12,845 nucleotides of DNA from an uncultured delta proteobacterium (GTDB lineage Bacteria > RBG-13-61-14 > DRUE01): assembly GCA_903930515.1 (NCBI GenBank), contig CAIYYW010000323.1:1-12845 (forward strand). Reading direction: 5' to 3'. Under the pieces are notes generated by a model. It searched no databases. It was given only the letters and a program-made list of their open reading frames with translations, and was not told the origin of the DNA. A program made the position numbers and the translations under genes. The first letter of the stretch is position 1; every line of letters starts with the position of its first letter. Below, in pieces: positions 2,574-12,428 of this stretch.

Positions 2574-3068
2574 TTACATTTTATATTTGCCGAAGTCCTC
2601 AGGGTCCAGCCCTTCCAGAATCTCGGTCCATTTATCCTTGTTTTCCTGACTGAATTCGCTCTCCTTAGAGTCCAGCTTCTGAGACTTGTCCAGAACCTCC
2701 TGGGCCACAAATACCGGCGCGCTCACCCGGAGCGCCACCGCGATCGCGTCGCTGGGACGGGAGTCTATCGCGAGCGTCCCGGCCTGGGTCTGGAGATGGA
2801 TCAGGGCGTAATAGGTATTATCGCGCAGGTCGGTGATCTCAATCTTGACCACCGAAACCTTGAGCTGTTCCAGGATGTTTTTCAACAGGTCGTGCGTGAG
2901 CGGCCGATGGATCTTGATCTTTTCCAGCTCCATCGCGATCGCGCTCGCCTCCAGGAGACCGATCCAGATCGGCAAAGTATGTTTCCCGTCCGCGTCCTTC
3001 AGGATCACGATCGGGACATTACTGACCGGGTCCAGGATAATCCCGCTGACTTTCATCTCAATATACAT
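2574..3068 (-). CDS. Bifunctional nuclease family protein (DUF151/BFN)
   Basis: A 164-residue protein of the DUF151 family. Conserved blocks are ILDPVSNVPIVILKD (about residues 11-25), LPIWIGLLEASAIAMELE (about 32-49), RPLTHDLL (about 55-62) and IDSRPSDAIAVALR (about 101-114). A short charged C-terminal tail ends in LDPEDFGKYKM, common in bacterial members. Some family members have been reported to have RNase/DNase activity; the physiological role in bacteria is unclear. It is probably cytoplasmic and has no signal peptide. It starts inside the last codons of miaB (16-base overlap) behind a good Shine-Dalgarno (AAGGAG, 7 bases upstream), so it is likely cotranslated with miaB. Confidence 0.92.
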   Translation of the reverse strand: MYIEMKVSGIILDPVSNVPIVILKDADGKHTLPIWIGLLEASAIAMELEKIKIHRPLTHDLLKNILEQLKVSVVKIEITDLRDNTYYALIHLQTQAGTLAIDSRPSDAIAVALRVSAPVFVAQEVLDKSQKLDSKESEFSQENKDKWTEILEGLDPEDFGKYKM

Positions 3069-4441
3069 TGCTCTTCTCCTTGCCGGTTTCCTTCGTTATC
3101 CACGCGCGCAACGACTTCGCCAAGCAAAGAATGTTTCAAACTCCTCTTTATATTGGCGGAAACCAATCTCCCCTGCAACCCGCGATGACCTTGAGCCGGG
3201 ATATGAACCAGTCTCCCCTCGCGCGACCTCCCGGTCAGCCGTTCCGGATCGCTCTTGCTCACCCCTTCCACCAGGATCTCCTTGACCTTGCCCGCCTGGG
3301 CCTGGTTCTTCTTCTCCGTGATCCGGCTCACCGCCGACGAAAGCCGGTAAAGCCGTTCCAGCTTGACCGGCTCCGGAACCTGGTCCGGATAGTTTGCCGC
3401 GCGGGTCATCGGCCGGGAACAATAGCGGAAGGTGAAGGCCTCGTCAAATTCAATCCGCTCCGCCAACTCAAGGGTGCGCTGAAAATCCGGCTCGGTTTCG
3501 CCCGGGAAACCCACGATCAAATCCGTGCCGATCCCGATTTCAGGCATTGCCGAGCGGAGCTTCTCAATCAGCCCCAGGTATTGATCCCCGGTATAGTTCC
3601 GGCCCATCAGTTCCAGGATGTGGTCCGAGCCGGCCTGGAGCGGCAGATGGATCTGCTCGCAAATTTTCCTCTCTCCGGCCATCGCCTCAATCAGCCGGTC
3701 CGAGAGGTCCTTGGGATGGTTGGTGGTGAAACGGATCCGCTCGATCCCGTCCACTCGCGCCACCCTTTTCAGCAAAGCCGGGAAATCCACTCCCGAGCCG
3801 TTTTTAATTCCGTAGGAATTGACATTCTGCCCGAGCAAAACCGTTTCCTTGACGCCCTTTTCCGACCAGGCCTGAACCTCGGAAATAATCTCGTCCGGAT
3901 TCCGGCTGATTTCCGGACCGCGAACATAAGGCACCACGCAAAAAGCGCAGTAATTATCGCAGCCTTCCATGATCGTGACAAACTGGCTTACCCCGCCGGA
4001 CGGCTGGTCCAAAGAGATTCGGAAGAGCAAATCCGGATCATCGGCGTCCGCCCATTCCGTTCGCAGAACCCGCTTTCCGGTCAGGACCTGGTCCAGCACT
4101 TCTCCAAGTTTAGCCACCTGATTGGTCCCGAGCGCGAAATTCAAGCCGGGAAAACGGTCCAACAATTTCTCTTGGTATTGCTGAGAAACGCATCCGCAAA
4201 TGCCCAAAATCAATTCCGGCCGTGTCCGCTCCTTGGCCTGACAGAATCGCCCCACCATACTCAGCGCCTTCCGCTCCGGCTTGTCCCGGACCGTGCAGGT
4301 GTTGATCAGGATCAGGTCGGCCGAGTCGGAATTTTCAGACGCCTGAATCCCTCTTTCCCGCAGGATTCCCTCCATCCGCTCGCAGTCCCGCACATTCATC
4401 TGGCATCCGAAATTGATGATGAAATAGCGGCTCGGCTTCAT
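3053..4441 (-). CDS. miaB: tRNA-2-methylthio-N6-dimethylallyladenosine synthase MiaB
   Basis: A 462-residue radical-SAM methylthiotransferase that adds the 2-methylthio group to i6A37 of tRNAs reading UNN codons. The N-terminal UPF0004 domain has GCQMN (C13), NTCTVR (C49) and GCVSQQ (C84) for the auxiliary Fe-S cluster. The radical-SAM motif CDNYCAFC (C161, C165, C168) is followed by VVPYVRG, which favours MiaB over RimO or MtaB. GTDLIVGFPGET lies at about 315-326, and a C-terminal TRAM-like domain covers about 386-450. The length is normal. An oddity is YCSRPMTRAA (340-349), where the family usually has a YSxRPGTxA-type segment. It is first in the minus-strand operon and its ATG has no Shine-Dalgarno but sits 7 bases behind a -10 box. 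It overlaps the DUF151 gene at its 3' end. Confidence 0.96.
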   Translation of the reverse strand: MKPSRYFIINFGCQMNVRDCERMEGILRERGIQASENSDSADLILINTCTVRDKPERKALSMVGRFCQAKERTRPELILGICGCVSQQYQEKLLDRFPGLNFALGTNQVAKLGEVLDQVLTGKRVLRTEWADADDPDLLFRISLDQPSGGVSQFVTIMEGCDNYCAFCVVPYVRGPEISRNPDEIISEVQAWSEKGVKETVLLGQNVNSYGIKNGSGVDFPALLKRVARVDGIERIRFTTNHPKDLSDRLIEAMAGERKICEQIHLPLQAGSDHILELMGRNYTGDQYLGLIEKLRSAMPEIGIGTDLIVGFPGETEPDFQRTLELAERIEFDEAFTFRYCSRPMTRAANYPDQVPEPVKLERLYRLSSAVSRITEKKNQAQAGKVKEILVEGVSKSDPERLTGRSREGRLVHIPAQGHRGLQGRLVSANIKRSLKHSLLGEVVARVDNEGNRQGEEQCILR

Positions 4442-4448
4442 TCCGATT

Positions 4449-4477
4449 AAGCTAACGGAAACGCATCCTCAAGTCAA
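4449..4477 (-). promoter_or_regulatory. miaB operon promoter, predicted leaderless
   Basis: On the minus strand there is TTGACT (4477-4472, part of the longer TTGACTTGA), exactly 17 bases of spacer, then TAGCTT (4454-4449). The miaB ATG begins 8 bases after the -10 box ends (7-base gap), so transcription would start at or next to the A of ATG. The -35 matches consensus at 5 of 6 bases, the -10 only at 3 of 6. The same 9-mer, spacer and gap precede the divergent spoIID-like gene, which raises my confidence. Confidence 0.55.
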
Positions 4478-4527
4478 TCGCGACTTTTCCAAGGGAGTGC
4501 GATATAAATGTTGATAAATCACACCTA

Positions 4528-4559
4528 TGGCAGGAGCCCGCCCGAGGCAAGCCCTGCCA
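4528..4559. repeat. Inverted repeat TGGCAGG/CCTGCCA between divergent promoters
   Basis: TGGCAGG (4528-4534) and CCTGCCA (4553-4559) are perfect 7-bp reverse complements around an 18-base GC-rich loop. It lies between the miaB and spoIID promoters, about 50 bases from the first and 87 from the second. It could be an operator or a small dispersed repeat; there is no T-run to make it a terminator. Confidence 0.4.
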
Positions 4560-4574
4560 AGACAGAATCCATAG

Positions 4575-4594
4575 ATGTCGCCAAATATGTCGCC
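4575..4594. repeat. Short direct repeat ATGTCGCC x2
   Basis: ATGTCGCC occurs at 4575-4582 and again at 4587-4594. The copies are 12 bases apart, close to one helical turn, so both would face the same side of the DNA. They sit about 52 bases upstream of the spoIID -35. A tandem binding site for an activator is possible, but chance cannot be excluded for an 8-mer. Confidence 0.3.
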
Positions 4595-4645
4595 CACCCT
4601 TTTCCCGGATTCCGCGGCGCCCAGGGGTCTGTTGTTCGGCCAGGT

Positions 4646-4674
4646 TTGACTTGAAGGCGCTTTGTCCATAGAAT
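4646..4674 (+). promoter_or_regulatory. Promoter of the spoIID-GGDEF-queA operon, predicted leaderless
   Basis: TTGACT (4646-4651, within TTGACTTGA), a 17-base spacer and TAGAAT (4669-4674) give a strong housekeeping-sigma match, with 5 of 6 bases in each box. The ATG starts at 4682 after a 7-base gap, so the expected transcription start falls on or beside the start codon. No Shine-Dalgarno sequence is present between the -10 box and the ATG. Confidence 0.65.
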
Positions 4675-4681
4675 TGATCAA

Positions 4682-5803
4682 ATGTTTAAGAACAAAAGCC
4701 GGATTTGGATGGGACTGGCGGCGCTGGCCCTGACTTTTATGCTTGGGGCGGCCAAGAAGGACGAGCGTGGGGTCCGGGTATTGCTGGGCGAGATCAGCCA
4801 GCCGGTGATGCTAGACGGGAAAGAACTGAAGGTTCAATCAAAACGGAAGGCCCAGAATTTCAACGGCAAGGTCCAGGTTGAGCCGAGGGACGGCAAGCTC
4901 TGGATCCAGGGGAAGGATGTTGGGGCCTCGTTGAAGATCAGTGGCTCAGGGCCGATCTCGGCGAATGGCAAGAGCTATCACGGCGGTCTCCGGATTGAGA
5001 AGGTTGAAGGTCATTTTTTGATGATCAATATTTTGGGCCTGGAGGATTATTTGGCCGGGGTGGTCAAGAATGAAATGTCGGTGAAATGGCCGATGGAGGC
5101 CCTGAAGGCCCAGACCATCCTGGCGCGGACCTATGCCCTGGGAAGAATGGAACAGCCCCGGACCGAATTTTACGATCTGTTTTCCACGGTGGAGGACCAG
5201 GTTTATTCCGGGATGGACGCGGAGGCCGAGGAGAGCTGGAAGGCGATCAAGGATACCCGGGGCGAGGTTTTATTTTATCAGGGCAAGCCGGCCCAGGTAT
5301 ATTATCATTCCTGCTGCGGGGGTTGGACCGAGCCGGTGGAATATGTCTGGGGCGGAAGCGGAAATCCATATCTGACCGCGGTGAAGTGCGATTACTGCCA
5401 GGACTGTCCCTATTATTTCTGGAGGTATCCGGACCAGAGCGCGCTGAGCGGGCAGGAGCTGGCCAACCGACTCGGGTACCAGGGAGAGACGGTGAGCGAG
5501 GCTCGGGTGGCTGATCTGAGTCCGGGCCAGCGGGTGATCAAGCTGGAGTTGAAGTTCCAATCCGGGTATAAAACTATGATCAGCGGGAATGATTTCCGGG
5601 TGCGGCTGGGAAGAGAGGTGATCCGGAGCACGCTGTTCAAGGTGGAAAAGGTTCCGGAGGGATTCATCGTTTTCGGGTCCGGGTCCGGGCACGGGGTCGG
5701 CCTGTGCCAGTGGGGCGCGAAAGGGATGGCCGAGGCCGGGAAGAGCTGCCAACAAATCCTGGAATATTATTTCCCGGGCGCTGAAATCAAAAAGGCGGAT
5801 TGA
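4682..5803 (+). CDS. SpoIID/LytB domain protein, putative peptidoglycan lytic transglycosylase
   Basis: A 373-residue exported protein. Residues 1-24 form a signal peptide (MFKNKSRIW then a hydrophobic core ending LGAA), which argues for this ATG over the internal ATG at codon 10. The SpoIID/LytB catalytic region spans about 100-365. NILGLEDYLAGVVKNEM (106-122) includes E121, which aligns with the catalytic glutamate of SpoIID, followed by WPMEALKAQTILARTYAL. YYHSCCGGWTE (207-217), VWGG and C236/C239/C242 fit the His/Cys zinc-site region known from SpoIID structures. GSGSGHGVGLCQWGAKGMAEAG (332-353) closes the domain. In spore formers SpoIID cleaves denuded glycan strands; in non-sporulating bacteria homologues such as LytB act in division or wall turnover. 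With no sporulation genes here, I infer a wall-remodelling role in the periplasm or cell wall. Confidence 0.9.
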   Translation: MFKNKSRIWMGLAALALTFMLGAAKKDERGVRVLLGEISQPVMLDGKELKVQSKRKAQNFNGKVQVEPRDGKLWIQGKDVGASLKISGSGPISANGKSYHGGLRIEKVEGHFLMINILGLEDYLAGVVKNEMSVKWPMEALKAQTILARTYALGRMEQPRTEFYDLFSTVEDQVYSGMDAEAEESWKAIKDTRGEVLFYQGKPAQVYYHSCCGGWTEPVEYVWGGSGNPYLTAVKCDYCQDCPYYFWRYPDQSALSGQELANRLGYQGETVSEARVADLSPGQRVIKLELKFQSGYKTMISGNDFRVRLGREVIRSTLFKVEKVPEGFIVFGSGSGHGVGLCQWGAKGMAEAGKSCQQILEYYFPGAEIKKAD

Positions 5804-5810
5804 AGGCAAA

Positions 5811-6920
5811 ATGAATGAACGGGACCGACTGAAAAAGGAAACCAAGCGGCTGACCGAGGAGATCCTCAATTTAGAGGGAGCGAATCGGAAGCTGAACGAG
5901 CGGTTGATCGAGCTATATATCCTTTACCAACTCACGCGCCAGCTCAGCCTGAGCTTGAACCTGAACGAGTTGTTCGAGCGGGCGATGAACCTGATCCAGG
6001 ATGTGCTGCACCTGGATGAATATTCAATTATGCTCCTGAACGACGAGAGCGGTCTTCTGGAAATCCGGGCGAGCCGGGGATTGAGCGATGACATCGTGGC
6101 CCGGGGACGGGTCAAGTCGGGAGAGGGCTTGAGCGGAAAGGTGGCGGCGTTGGGCAAACCGGTCCTGGTCGCGGACCTGTCCACCAATGACACCTATATA
6201 TATTATCCCGGGAGCGGCAAGCGCAAGGGATCATATTTGGGAATCCCGCTCCTGGCCCGGGACGGCCGAATTTTTGGGGTGCTCAATTTACATAATTCTG
6301 ACCCGGCCGGCTTTAACGAGAAGGACTTGAGGCTGTTCCAGGCCGCGGCCGAGCAGGTGTCGATCTCGCTGGACAACGCGCTAACCTTCCAGATGACCAA
6401 GGAGCTGACCAACCGGGACGAGCTGACCAAGCTCTATAACCGCAGGTATTTCTTCGAGCGGCTGGAAAAGGAAGTGGAGCGGGCGAAGCGGTATCAGAGG
6501 AAGCTTTCCCTGCTGATGATAGACATAGACCATTTCAAGAACTACAACGACACCTTCGGACATCTCCACGGGGACGATGTGCTCCGCCAGATCGGGCAGG
6601 CCCTGGAAAAAAATTTGCGCAAGGTGGATGTGATCGCCCGTTACGGGGGCGAGGAATTTTTGGCGCTCTTGCCGGAGACCGACAAAAAGAGCGCCAAGCG
6701 GGTAGGAGAGAAACTGCGGAAGGCGGTGGAGAAAGCCGACTTTCATTCCAAGGTTTCCGAGCTGGGTCCGGGTAAAATCGCCATCACCATCGGGATCAGC
6801 GCGTTCCCGGACGATTGTCAGGACGCCCTTGAGCTTTTGGACCTGGCGGACAAGGCGATGTATTACGGAAAGGTCCAGGGCCGGAACCGGGTCTGCGCGG
6901 AACTGCCTTCTAAAAAATAA
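5811..6920 (+). CDS. GAF-GGDEF diguanylate cyclase
   Basis: A 369-residue cytoplasmic signalling protein that should make c-di-GMP from two GTP. An N-terminal coiled coil (about residues 1-45, rich in E, K, R and L) leads into a GAF sensor domain (about 50-195; ligand unknown). The GGDEF domain begins with the typical DELTKLYNRRYF (203-214), has IDIDHFKNYND (237-247), the active-site GGEEF (279-283) and the inhibitory I-site R270-x-x-D273 five residues upstream of it. All key residues are present, so it is predicted active and product-inhibited. It starts 8 bases after the spoIID-like stop, with GAAGG overlapping that stop codon as Shine-Dalgarno, so it is cotranscribed. There is no EAL or HD-GYP domain. 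Confidence 0.93.
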   Translation: MNERDRLKKETKRLTEEILNLEGANRKLNERLIELYILYQLTRQLSLSLNLNELFERAMNLIQDVLHLDEYSIMLLNDESGLLEIRASRGLSDDIVARGRVKSGEGLSGKVAALGKPVLVADLSTNDTYIYYPGSGKRKGSYLGIPLLARDGRIFGVLNLHNSDPAGFNEKDLRLFQAAAEQVSISLDNALTFQMTKELTNRDELTKLYNRRYFFERLEKEVERAKRYQRKLSLLMIDIDHFKNYNDTFGHLHGDDVLRQIGQALEKNLRKVDVIARYGGEEFLALLPETDKKSAKRVGEKLRKAVEKADFHSKVSELGPGKIAITIGISAFPDDCQDALELLDLADKAMYYGKVQGRNRVCAELPSKK

Positions 6921-9499: not shown

Positions 9500-9582
9500 A
9501 TCTAACCGCAACGACACAAAGAAAAAAAAGAGCGGGCGACAAGCCGGAGGCTTCTTCCAGGTGATGGATTGGCCGGGAATAT

Positions 9583-9590
9583 GATAGAAT
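9583..9590 (+). promoter_or_regulatory. Extended -10 promoter directly before the PilZ/HEAT gene
   Basis: TGATAGAAT (9582-9590) is a TGn extended -10 with box TAGAAT (9585-9590), the same box as in the spoIID promoter. Only 6 bases separate it from the ATG at 9597. The -35 region is poor (best 3 of 6 bases, GTGATG at 9561-9566). No Shine-Dalgarno precedes the ATG, so a leaderless transcript is expected in addition to any readthrough from the VWA gene. Confidence 0.45.
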
Positions 9591-9596
9591 AATAGT

Positions 9597-12428
9597 ATGA
9601 GGGTTAGAATCCGGTTGAAGTTTCCGGCAATCGGGAAATCGCTTCAGGATTTCTTGAACTCGCTTTCTCAGGGCAATATCTCCATACCGGTCGGCAAGAT
9701 TTATGAGTCGGGCGCGGAAATAGATCTGGAGTTGATCCTGCCGGAGCTTGCGGAAGCTCAGACCATTAAAGCAAAGGTGCTCAATACAAATCCGGAAACC
9801 AAATCCCTCCAGGCCGTGATTATTGACCGCCAGGAGGTGGATCGCCTTTTTAATCAACTGCGGAAAATACCGGCTTACCATGATCTGGTTGACAATCCTG
9901 ATCGACCGGTGGTTACAATTGAAGAAGATCGCGAACCAGAGAGTCCCGCTCCAACCGCGGAACCGGAAGTGGTGATCAAGCCTTCTCTTCCTGAGTCAAA
10001 ATCAGAAAAGCAGGCCCCGGCAGTTGAGACCCAGCCGGCCCGGAAAGAAAAGGCGGAACTGCGCGCGCCCGAACCAGCCCCTCCGGAAAAACCAGCGGAA
10101 GAAAAAGTTGCGCCGAAAAAGCCCGCGGAACCAGAACCGGCTCCACCCCCAGGAACTGCGGAGCCGTCCGCCCAAGAACCGGCGCCGGAGAAGTTGGCCG
10201 AGAAAAAGGCATCTGCTCCGGATCTGATGGCCCAGCTCAAGGGTTGGCTTTTAATCAAAGACCAGAAACAAGAAAAGAAGGAGTCCAAAGAAAAAAGCGG
10301 GGAGAAAGAAGAAGAGCAAAAGGAAGAAAAGGAAAAAGAGCTTGACCTTGAACCTGCCAACCAATTTGTTCAATCCCTGGTCAAAGCTATGCTCAGAAGC
10401 GGCTATTACGCGCATGACCATCCCGAGTCCGGGCAGGCCAAGCACGGCCTTTATAATGAATATAAAAAAGCGGTTGGCGATAATAATGAATTGGGATTTT
10501 CGCTTCAGCATCGCGTGGGCCAGACTCCGGAAATATACATCATCGGCATCATTGATGATCCGATCCCGCTGAAAAAATTGCTCGGGCAGGGCACCTCGGA
10601 ACTTTTCTTTCCAAAATATATGGATTACTTCAACCGGAAACGGCTGGTCAGCTTTGCGATCAAAAGTGAAATCAGCAAGGAGCATTTTAATAGTTTTGTG
10701 GACATTATGAGCGACCCCAATGTGGACAAGGGAGAGGCCGGCGAATCCGGCCGGCTCTTAACCCGGATGCTGGTGGAAAGCCAGATCAACGAAATCTCCG
10801 CGCTGTTTGAAACCGACTTGATCCAATTGGAAACCAACCTGCCTTGGCGCGTGGAAATGGCGATCCAGCGGCTGGCAAAAGACCTCCTGGTCCTGCCCAT
10901 GTTCAAGAATATCGGTAAAGCAGACCTGCAACGATTGAAAAGGCAAATTATTCAAGACATCCAGAGGCCCTTGCGCAACCCGGAACTTCTGAAAGACATT
11001 GTTCTTAATATCTATCTGATTGCCCTGCAGGTGCCGGGGATAGATGAGGAAGAGTTGGAAGAGGCCATTATTGAAAATTTCCCGCTTCCAATGCTCTTGC
11101 CGACTTCGGAATTCATCTTCAAGGAATTTGCCAAAATAAGTGAATTGAAGCCTTCAACGCCGGAAGAAGAGCAGTTAATCTCCAGACGGATCCAGGCGGT
11201 AAAAAGAATCCTCAAAAAAATATCGGCGCGGGTCATTGATGCGGAACTGGAGGGGTCGGACAAATTTCTGGAACAACTTTTCGGCCTGAAAATTCTTACC
11301 TTTGAGGAACTGCCGGAATTGGTTCAAGAAAAGGTCAACAATCAGAAAATGGCTGACGAGTTTCAAAAACAGCCGGCGTACTGGTTGGGAAAATTTGCCG
11401 AGGCCCGGACCAAAGAAGAGCTGGACTTATTTTTAAAATATTTCTCGAAAATTCTGACGATCCTGATTGACCGGAAAGATTGGCAGGGCCTGTACCTGAT
11501 CACCGAAACCTTCTTGAGGATTCCGCCCAATAAGCTGAAAATCTTGGCGGAGATGGGCTTGGAAAATGCCGCGGCATCCCTCTGGGAACACCAGATCAGC
11601 GCATTGGTCCGCTGTCTCCTGGATGAGTCCGCGGCGAGCAGGAAAGGACTGGAGCAAATTCTTTTCCTGCTCGGGGAGTTCGCCATGAACGCGGCCTATC
11701 AAGCGTTGCTCCAAGAGGGCGAGCCGTCGAAAAGAAAAATCTTGATTGAAATCCTGATCCAATTCGGACCCAAAGCGATGGAGCTGTTCCGCGCTATCCT
11801 CAAAGACCCATCCAAGTCATCGCTGCTTCAGTTTCTGGCTCTGGAGGCGCTCGGTCGCGCCAAAGAAAAAAGCGATGTTGACCTGGTTCGGCGCTATCTC
11901 AGGCATAGCCGTCCGGAACTGCGCAGTGAAGCCATCACCGCCCTGGTAAGAATTTCCGGCTGGGAGGCAATCAATAATATCCTCGCTCTTATGTCCGACC
12001 CGGAGCCGGCAGTCAAGAAAAGATTGATTGCCACGCTGGGCGGATTTGCGGGCGCGCATCAAGAGGCAAAGTCAAAGCTGATGGAGATCGCGCTTGACCA
12101 TATCTTGGCCGGCGAGCAACGGGCGTTGGCGCTAATGGAACTGGGAAGGGCTTTGCCGGAATCTCCGGAAGACCGGGCAAAACTCCAGGATGAGCTTCTG
12201 GATTTGGTTTGCGAGGGAGAAGGATTCCGCGGCCGGCTGCGCCGGGCTTTTAAGCAGCGATCAGAAGAGCTTGGAAAACTCAAGCTTGCCGGCCTGGAGG
12301 TGCTGGGAAAAATCGGGAATGAAGAAGCGCTGCTTAAACTTTCCAAACTGAGTATGTCCGGCAAAGAACTTCAGTCCCGGCTGGAAGCGGTTTTAAACCA
12401 GCTCCACCTCCGGCTGGGCGCCAAATAA
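9597..12428 (+). CDS. Large PilZ-like / Pro-Glu-Lys linker / HEAT-repeat protein
   Basis: A 943-residue protein without signal peptide or membrane segments. Residues 1-95 resemble the PilZ-like beta-barrel seen in myxobacterial paralogues: FLNSLSQGNISIPVGKIYESGAEIDLELILPE (read as two blocks, FLNSLSQGNISIPVGKI and YESGAEIDLELILPE, 19-50), then IKAKVLNT. The classic RxxxR and D/NxSxxG c-di-GMP residues are not clear, so ligand binding is uncertain. Residues about 101-250 are a low-complexity Pro/Ala/Glu then Lys/Glu linker, probably disordered. Residues about 252-375 form a compact domain (FVQSLVKAMLRSGYYAHDHPE, split as FVQSLVKAML and RSGYYAHDHPE; later FFPKYMDYFNRKRLVSFAI) seen in other HEAT-protein families. 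The rest is helical, with clear HEAT-like repeats at about 680-940 (for example PELRSEAITALVRISGWEAI). It is probably a scaffold acting with the VWA protein encoded just upstream; function unknown. Confidence 0.8.
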   Translation: MRVRIRLKFPAIGKSLQDFLNSLSQGNISIPVGKIYESGAEIDLELILPELAEAQTIKAKVLNTNPETKSLQAVIIDRQEVDRLFNQLRKIPAYHDLVDNPDRPVVTIEEDREPESPAPTAEPEVVIKPSLPESKSEKQAPAVETQPARKEKAELRAPEPAPPEKPAEEKVAPKKPAEPEPAPPPGTAEPSAQEPAPEKLAEKKASAPDLMAQLKGWLLIKDQKQEKKESKEKSGEKEEEQKEEKEKELDLEPANQFVQSLVKAMLRSGYYAHDHPESGQAKHGLYNEYKKAVGDNNELGFSLQHRVGQTPEIYIIGIIDDPIPLKKLLGQGTSELFFPKYMDYFNRKRLVSFAIKSEISKEHFNSFVDIMSDPNVDKGEAGESGRLLTRMLVESQINEISALFETDLIQLETNLPWRVEMAIQRLAKDLLVLPMFKNIGKADLQRLKRQIIQDIQRPLRNPELLKDIVLNIYLIALQVPGIDEEELEEAIIENFPLPMLLPTSEFIFKEFAKISELKPSTPEEEQLISRRIQAVKRILKKISARVIDAELEGSDKFLEQLFGLKILTFEELPELVQEKVNNQKMADEFQKQPAYWLGKFAEARTKEELDLFLKYFSKILTILIDRKDWQGLYLITETFLRIPPNKLKILAEMGLENAAASLWEHQISALVRCLLDESAASRKGLEQILFLLGEFAMNAAYQALLQEGEPSKRKILIEILIQFGPKAMELFRAILKDPSKSSLLQFLALEALGRAKEKSDVDLVRRYLRHSRPELRSEAITALVRISGWEAINNILALMSDPEPAVKKRLIATLGGFAGAHQEAKSKLMEIALDHILAGEQRALALMELGRALPESPEDRAKLQDELLDLVCEGEGFRGRLRRAFKQRSEELGKLKLAGLEVLGKIGNEEALLKLSKLSMSGKELQSRLEAVLNQLHLRLGAK

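Follow-up and report, generated by a model that had tools for sequence, protein, structure and literature searches.

Divergent sigma-70 promoters at the start codons of miaB and a spoIID-like gene, and their probable leaderless mRNAs

In a delta-proteobacterial genome, miaB and a spoIID-like gene diverge from a 240-bp gap in which each has a candidate promoter next to its ATG, and both promoters carry the same 9-mer, TTGACTTGA. The locus raises the question of whether the two operons are transcribed as leaderless mRNAs, and whether the 9-mer marks a promoter class of its own. The window analysed here (12,845 nucleotides) is contig 323 of the source assembly G000 (3.65 Mb, 401 contigs).

On the plus strand, the spoIID promoter has its -35 hexamer TTGACT at 4646-4651 (9-mer at 4646-4654), a 17-nt spacer (4652-4668) and the -10 hexamer TAGAAT at 4669-4674. 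Seven nucleotides (4675-4681) separate it from the ATG (4682-4684) of the spoIID-like gene (ORF 4682-5803). The miaB promoter on the minus strand has TTGACT at 4477-4472 (9-mer at 4477-4469), a 17-nt spacer (4471-4455), TAGCTT at 4454-4449 and 7 nt (4448-4442) before the ATG at 4441-4439 (ORF 3053-4441). The layout common to both is thus TTGACTTGA within TTGACT-17-TAGnnT-7-ATG, with the first T of TANNNT at -13. Both genes read AATG, placing an A at the first base of the ATG and another just before it. The initial annotation had described 39 bases from TTG through the end of the ATG in both promoters, the 9-mer in both, and no Shine-Dalgarno (SD) sequence ahead of either ATG. Coordinates and upstream sequences on both strands bear this out, and the two 9-mers are the only copies in the window.

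A consensus promoter scan of 4380-4760 reported only 4646-4674, the spoIID promoter. With 10 of 12 consensus matches by the scanner and a 17-nt spacer, this site has the spacing and hexamers of a sigma-70 promoter. The miaB promoter matches the consensus at 8 of 12 positions by reading, which is below the threshold of the scanner, and its -10 box TAGCTT is weak. The RpoD protein of the genome scores 385 bits against TIGR02393 (cut-off 354) and carries the usual promoter-reading motifs, including TRERIRQIEAKALRKL, as a canonical primary sigma factor does. No Rfam family was found in the window.

Both start codons are credible from the encoded proteins. The miaB product, a tRNA methylthiotransferase with UPF0004, Radical_SAM and TRAM domains (Pfam), is only about 45% identical to its closest named relatives; its start is credible because the conserved GCQMN comes right after it. 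The plus-strand operon has the order spoIID (SpoIID-domain protein), GGDEF, queA. The SpoIID start is credible because the signal peptide length (26 residues to GAAKK) equals that of the ORF in a congener, G001, where the start position is matched.

To place the two promoters in the context of the genome, operon-first genes were examined in a sample of about 1.09 Mb, with simple gene calling that was blind to upstream signals. The start codons of most genes were called without homology, and the Poisson p-values given below assume independent positions. TANNNT peaked 6-8 nt ahead of operon-first ATGs (42 vs. 13 expected). Part of the contigs had entered the sample on account of the pattern itself, and a second count therefore left out both these and the window. 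In the remaining 0.96 Mb with 238 first genes, 34 had TANNNT at this distance vs. 12 expected (p = 1.5e-7), as did only 2 of 232 operon-internal genes. SD-like tetramers were found in 3 of the 34 first genes with such a -10 box vs. 102 of the 204 without (p = 3e-6), and a -35 box with at least 5 of 6 TTGACA positions stood 16-18 nt upstream in 10 of 34 vs. 1 of 102 control placements. Contigs taken purely in number order gave 15 vs. 6.3 expected (p = 2e-3), with SD in 1/15 vs. 62/115. The same procedure was positive in the same-order relative G002 (12 vs. 3.4) and in the positive control, Deinococcus radiodurans plasmid MP1 (8 vs. 0.8), and flat in four 50-kb pieces of Escherichia coli K-12 (4 vs. 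6.2 expected). Enrichment at 6-10 bases from start codons, the genome-wide check proposed by the initial annotation, was thus present at 6-8 bases and for operon-first genes only. By the strict TANNNT count, the excess amounts to about 9% of the first genes that start with ATG, and the leaderless arrangement appears to be used by a minority of the genes in this genome. Chance alone could account for any one site, because many first genes are conventionally led (about 12 of the 34 are expected).

Pattern counts over the whole genome gave a similar picture. TTGAC-N18-TANNNT-N5-9-ATG occurred at 39 sites vs. 3 for the reversed control pattern, and a spacer one base longer gave 16 vs. 4. The same promoter at a leadered distance from the ATG (N25-29) was found 20 times vs. 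2, and conventional leadered promoters are therefore also present. Relative to the far distance, the near one showed an enrichment of about twofold.

These data argue for the leaderless state that had been proposed for both operons: it is supported by the operon-first enrichment, the depletion of SD and the matched -35 boxes, and the 7-base gap would permit a leader of 0 or 1 base. We consider it very probable that miaB and spoIID are driven by two independent, divergent and ordinary sigma-70/RpoD promoters placed at their ATGs, that both operons yield leaderless mRNAs, and that the 9-mer is shared by chance; where transcription starts and how ribosomes bind are what we infer from this arrangement. 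Sigma-70 transcription usually starts 7-8 nt after the -10 box. Since each -10 box ends 7 bases before its ATG, RNA polymerase would start at the A of the ATG or at the A one base earlier, and the resulting messages would have a leader of 0-1 nt. The first gene would then be translated through ribosome binding to the 5'-terminal AUG, and downstream genes of the operon would use SD where a ribosome site exists. That mRNAs without a leader can be translated is established; E. coli does so with 70S ribosomes (PMC3898074).

The proposal that the 9-mer defines a class of promoters whose -35 box is followed by TGA did not hold. A scan for the TTGACTTGA geometry over 3.65 Mb returned only the miaB and spoIID sites as full matches, a class of two members that both lie in the window. 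The 9-mer has 41 copies in the genome, and of 30 others inspected, one was promoter-like in register (L023) and one was shifted (L005); the remaining inspected copies had no -10 box at the correct distance. TGA occupied positions 7-9, after the -35 box, in 3 of the 138 strict promoters in the sample, which amounts to no preference, and the -35 boxes of the other leaderless promoters in the genome are plain TTGACA-like, likewise with no TGA preference. Many identical 9-mers recur among these 138 promoters, and the coincidence of a shared 9-mer is therefore modest once both promoters are of the TTGAC type. The shared TTGACTTGA is a local coincidence, a chance match of two TTGACT promoters. The idea that one promoter arose as a copy of the other was also considered and rejected: outside TTGAC, TAnnnT and ATG, 12 of 28 positions agree, and 4 of these 12 are the rest of the 9-mer.

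The two inspected copies with promoter-like surroundings were read individually. At L023 (G000:C200, ~10789-10818), a TTGACTTGA promoter with TCCATATAAT has the -10 box TATAAT, 12 nt from the next ATG, and precedes a glycosyltransferase-like ORF. Its sequence, TTGACTTGATTTCCAAAATCTCCATATAAT, has TTGACTTG and TCCATA before the -10 box, as does the spoIID promoter in both G000 and G001. At L005 (G000:C58, ~6095-6103, minus strand), TTGACTTGACA includes a TTGACA out of register with the 9-mer, from which 17 nt lead to TATAAA and a further 6 nt to an ATG; the downstream protein of 318 aa, as read from its sequence only, resembles a REP/IS200-type transposase.

Conservation was followed in G001 and G002. 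The spoIID ortholog of G001 (72% identity) is preceded by TTGACTTG, the same 17 nt between hexamers, TAAAAT, 8 nt and the ATG. The aligned block GTTTGACTTG....CTTT.TCCATA.AA is a conserved island, and the rest of the spoIID upstream region aligns poorly between G000 and G001. The divergent neighbour in G001 is not miaB but a nucleotidyltransferase-like ORF (GSAASGGFDPARSDLDCLVEF, read from sequence), and the spoIID promoter is therefore maintained independently of the divergent pair. In the G001 assembly, which is 87% complete, paralogs but no ortholog of miaB were found. The miaB gene of G002 (L260, G002:C27, 5975-6085) is preceded, at about 41 nt from the ATG, by TTGACA-17-TAGCTT, which gives a leader of about 35-40 nt with no obvious SD. 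The likeness of this promoter to TTGACT-17-TAGCTT in the window may reflect conservation or chance. Because this promoter is leadered, members of the order do not all share a leaderless miaB, and a switch of one gene between the leadered and the leaderless state is possible. A different divergent promoter lies beside the miaB promoter at L260. A search for 16S rRNA gave no match in G000 or G001, and in G002 only pieces ending at model position 1335.

Two other explanations of the locus were weighed. The operons could have ordinary leaders if transcription began at promoters elsewhere in the gap, at a greater distance from the ATGs, and if ribosomes needed no SD, being helped for instance by ribosomal protein S1 on an unstructured leader. 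Half of the first genes without an ATG-adjacent -10 box also lack SD, and SD-less leadered genes may therefore exist; the leader of G002 miaB appears to be one such case. Yet the scan of the gap offered no promoter besides the one at the spoIID ATG, and it is this promoter, in its ATG-adjacent position, that is conserved in the congener. We regard ordinary leaders as unlikely here. A dedicated promoter class, or the site of a regulator coupling both operons, would account for two copies of TTGACTTGA in one intergenic region (0.08 expected in the window; two copies were reached in 1 of 200 shuffles), where each is one arm of an inverted repeat that is imperfect (18 nt, 78%). The conservation of TTGACTTG in the G001 spoIID promoter and the further TTGACTTGA promoter with TCCATATAAT at L023 also speak for it. 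However, the 9-mer is absent from the other leaderless promoters of the genome, TGA is rare after the -35 box, most sampled copies have no suitably placed -10 box, the spoIID neighbour in G001 is a different gene, and among promoter-like sites TTGACTTT is three times commoner than TTGACTTG (n = 22 vs. n = 7). This leaves such a class or coupling site highly improbable. A narrower version, in which TTGACTTG together with the spacer CTTT-TCCATA is a regulator site of very few genes (spoIID, the glycosyltransferase-like gene at L023 and perhaps miaB), is given slightly less credence still; if it were true, leaderless cell-wall and tRNA-modification operons would be co-regulated.

Ordinary sigma-70 promoters with leaderless mRNAs, the reading we prefer, have clear precedents. 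Among 953 bacterial genomes, Zheng et al. (2011) found 207 in which leaderless ('TA-led') genes are marked by a TANNNT placed about 12 bp ahead of the start codon, with averages of 13.3% in three Acidobacteria and 15.8% in eight delta-Proteobacteria genomes, and that SD is usually needed by operon-distal genes (PMC3160421). The genes described here resemble their TA-led genes in the position of TANNNT (T at -13), the absence of SD and the operon-first location. The excess of about 9% in our strict TANNNT count differs from their averages, the methods being not directly comparable. On each feature open to testing, the case agrees with their account, the transcription start itself being placed by the usual distance from the -10 box. 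In Deinococcus-Thermus, TANNNT 6-7 bp upstream of ORFs acts as a promoter and gives leaderless mRNA (PMC12340547). The -10 motif adjoins the ORF in both systems, with promoter function shown there and read from sequence here; unlike in Deinococcus-Thermus, many -10 boxes in this genome have a conventional -35 box at 16-18 nt, and the share of genes is smaller. In Mycobacterium tuberculosis, experimental mapping showed that, of the genes with a primary start site, about a quarter are transcribed from the start codon itself with a TANNNT -10 box, and the -10 box was inferred to be the dominant recognition determinant (PMC3898074). The placement of TANNNT relative to the start codon is the same, with starts mapped there and predicted here, whereas the -35 box is clear in the present genome.

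A known mode of expression is thereby extended to a poorly sampled lineage, the mechanism being already established elsewhere. Only two other genomes among those searched belong to the same order, all remaining ones sharing only the domain, and this rarity of the lineage among the genomes searched is the only new element. For start-codon annotation in such genomes, an ATG-adjacent -10 box can serve as evidence beyond SD.

A third leaderless candidate, absent from the initial annotation, was seen on the plus strand of the window at 9582-9599: TGATAGAAT, an extended -10 box (9585-9590), is separated by 6 nt from the ATG that opens ORF 9597-12428. This -10 box has no evident -35 box, and the ORF encodes a HEAT-repeat protein of 943 aa.
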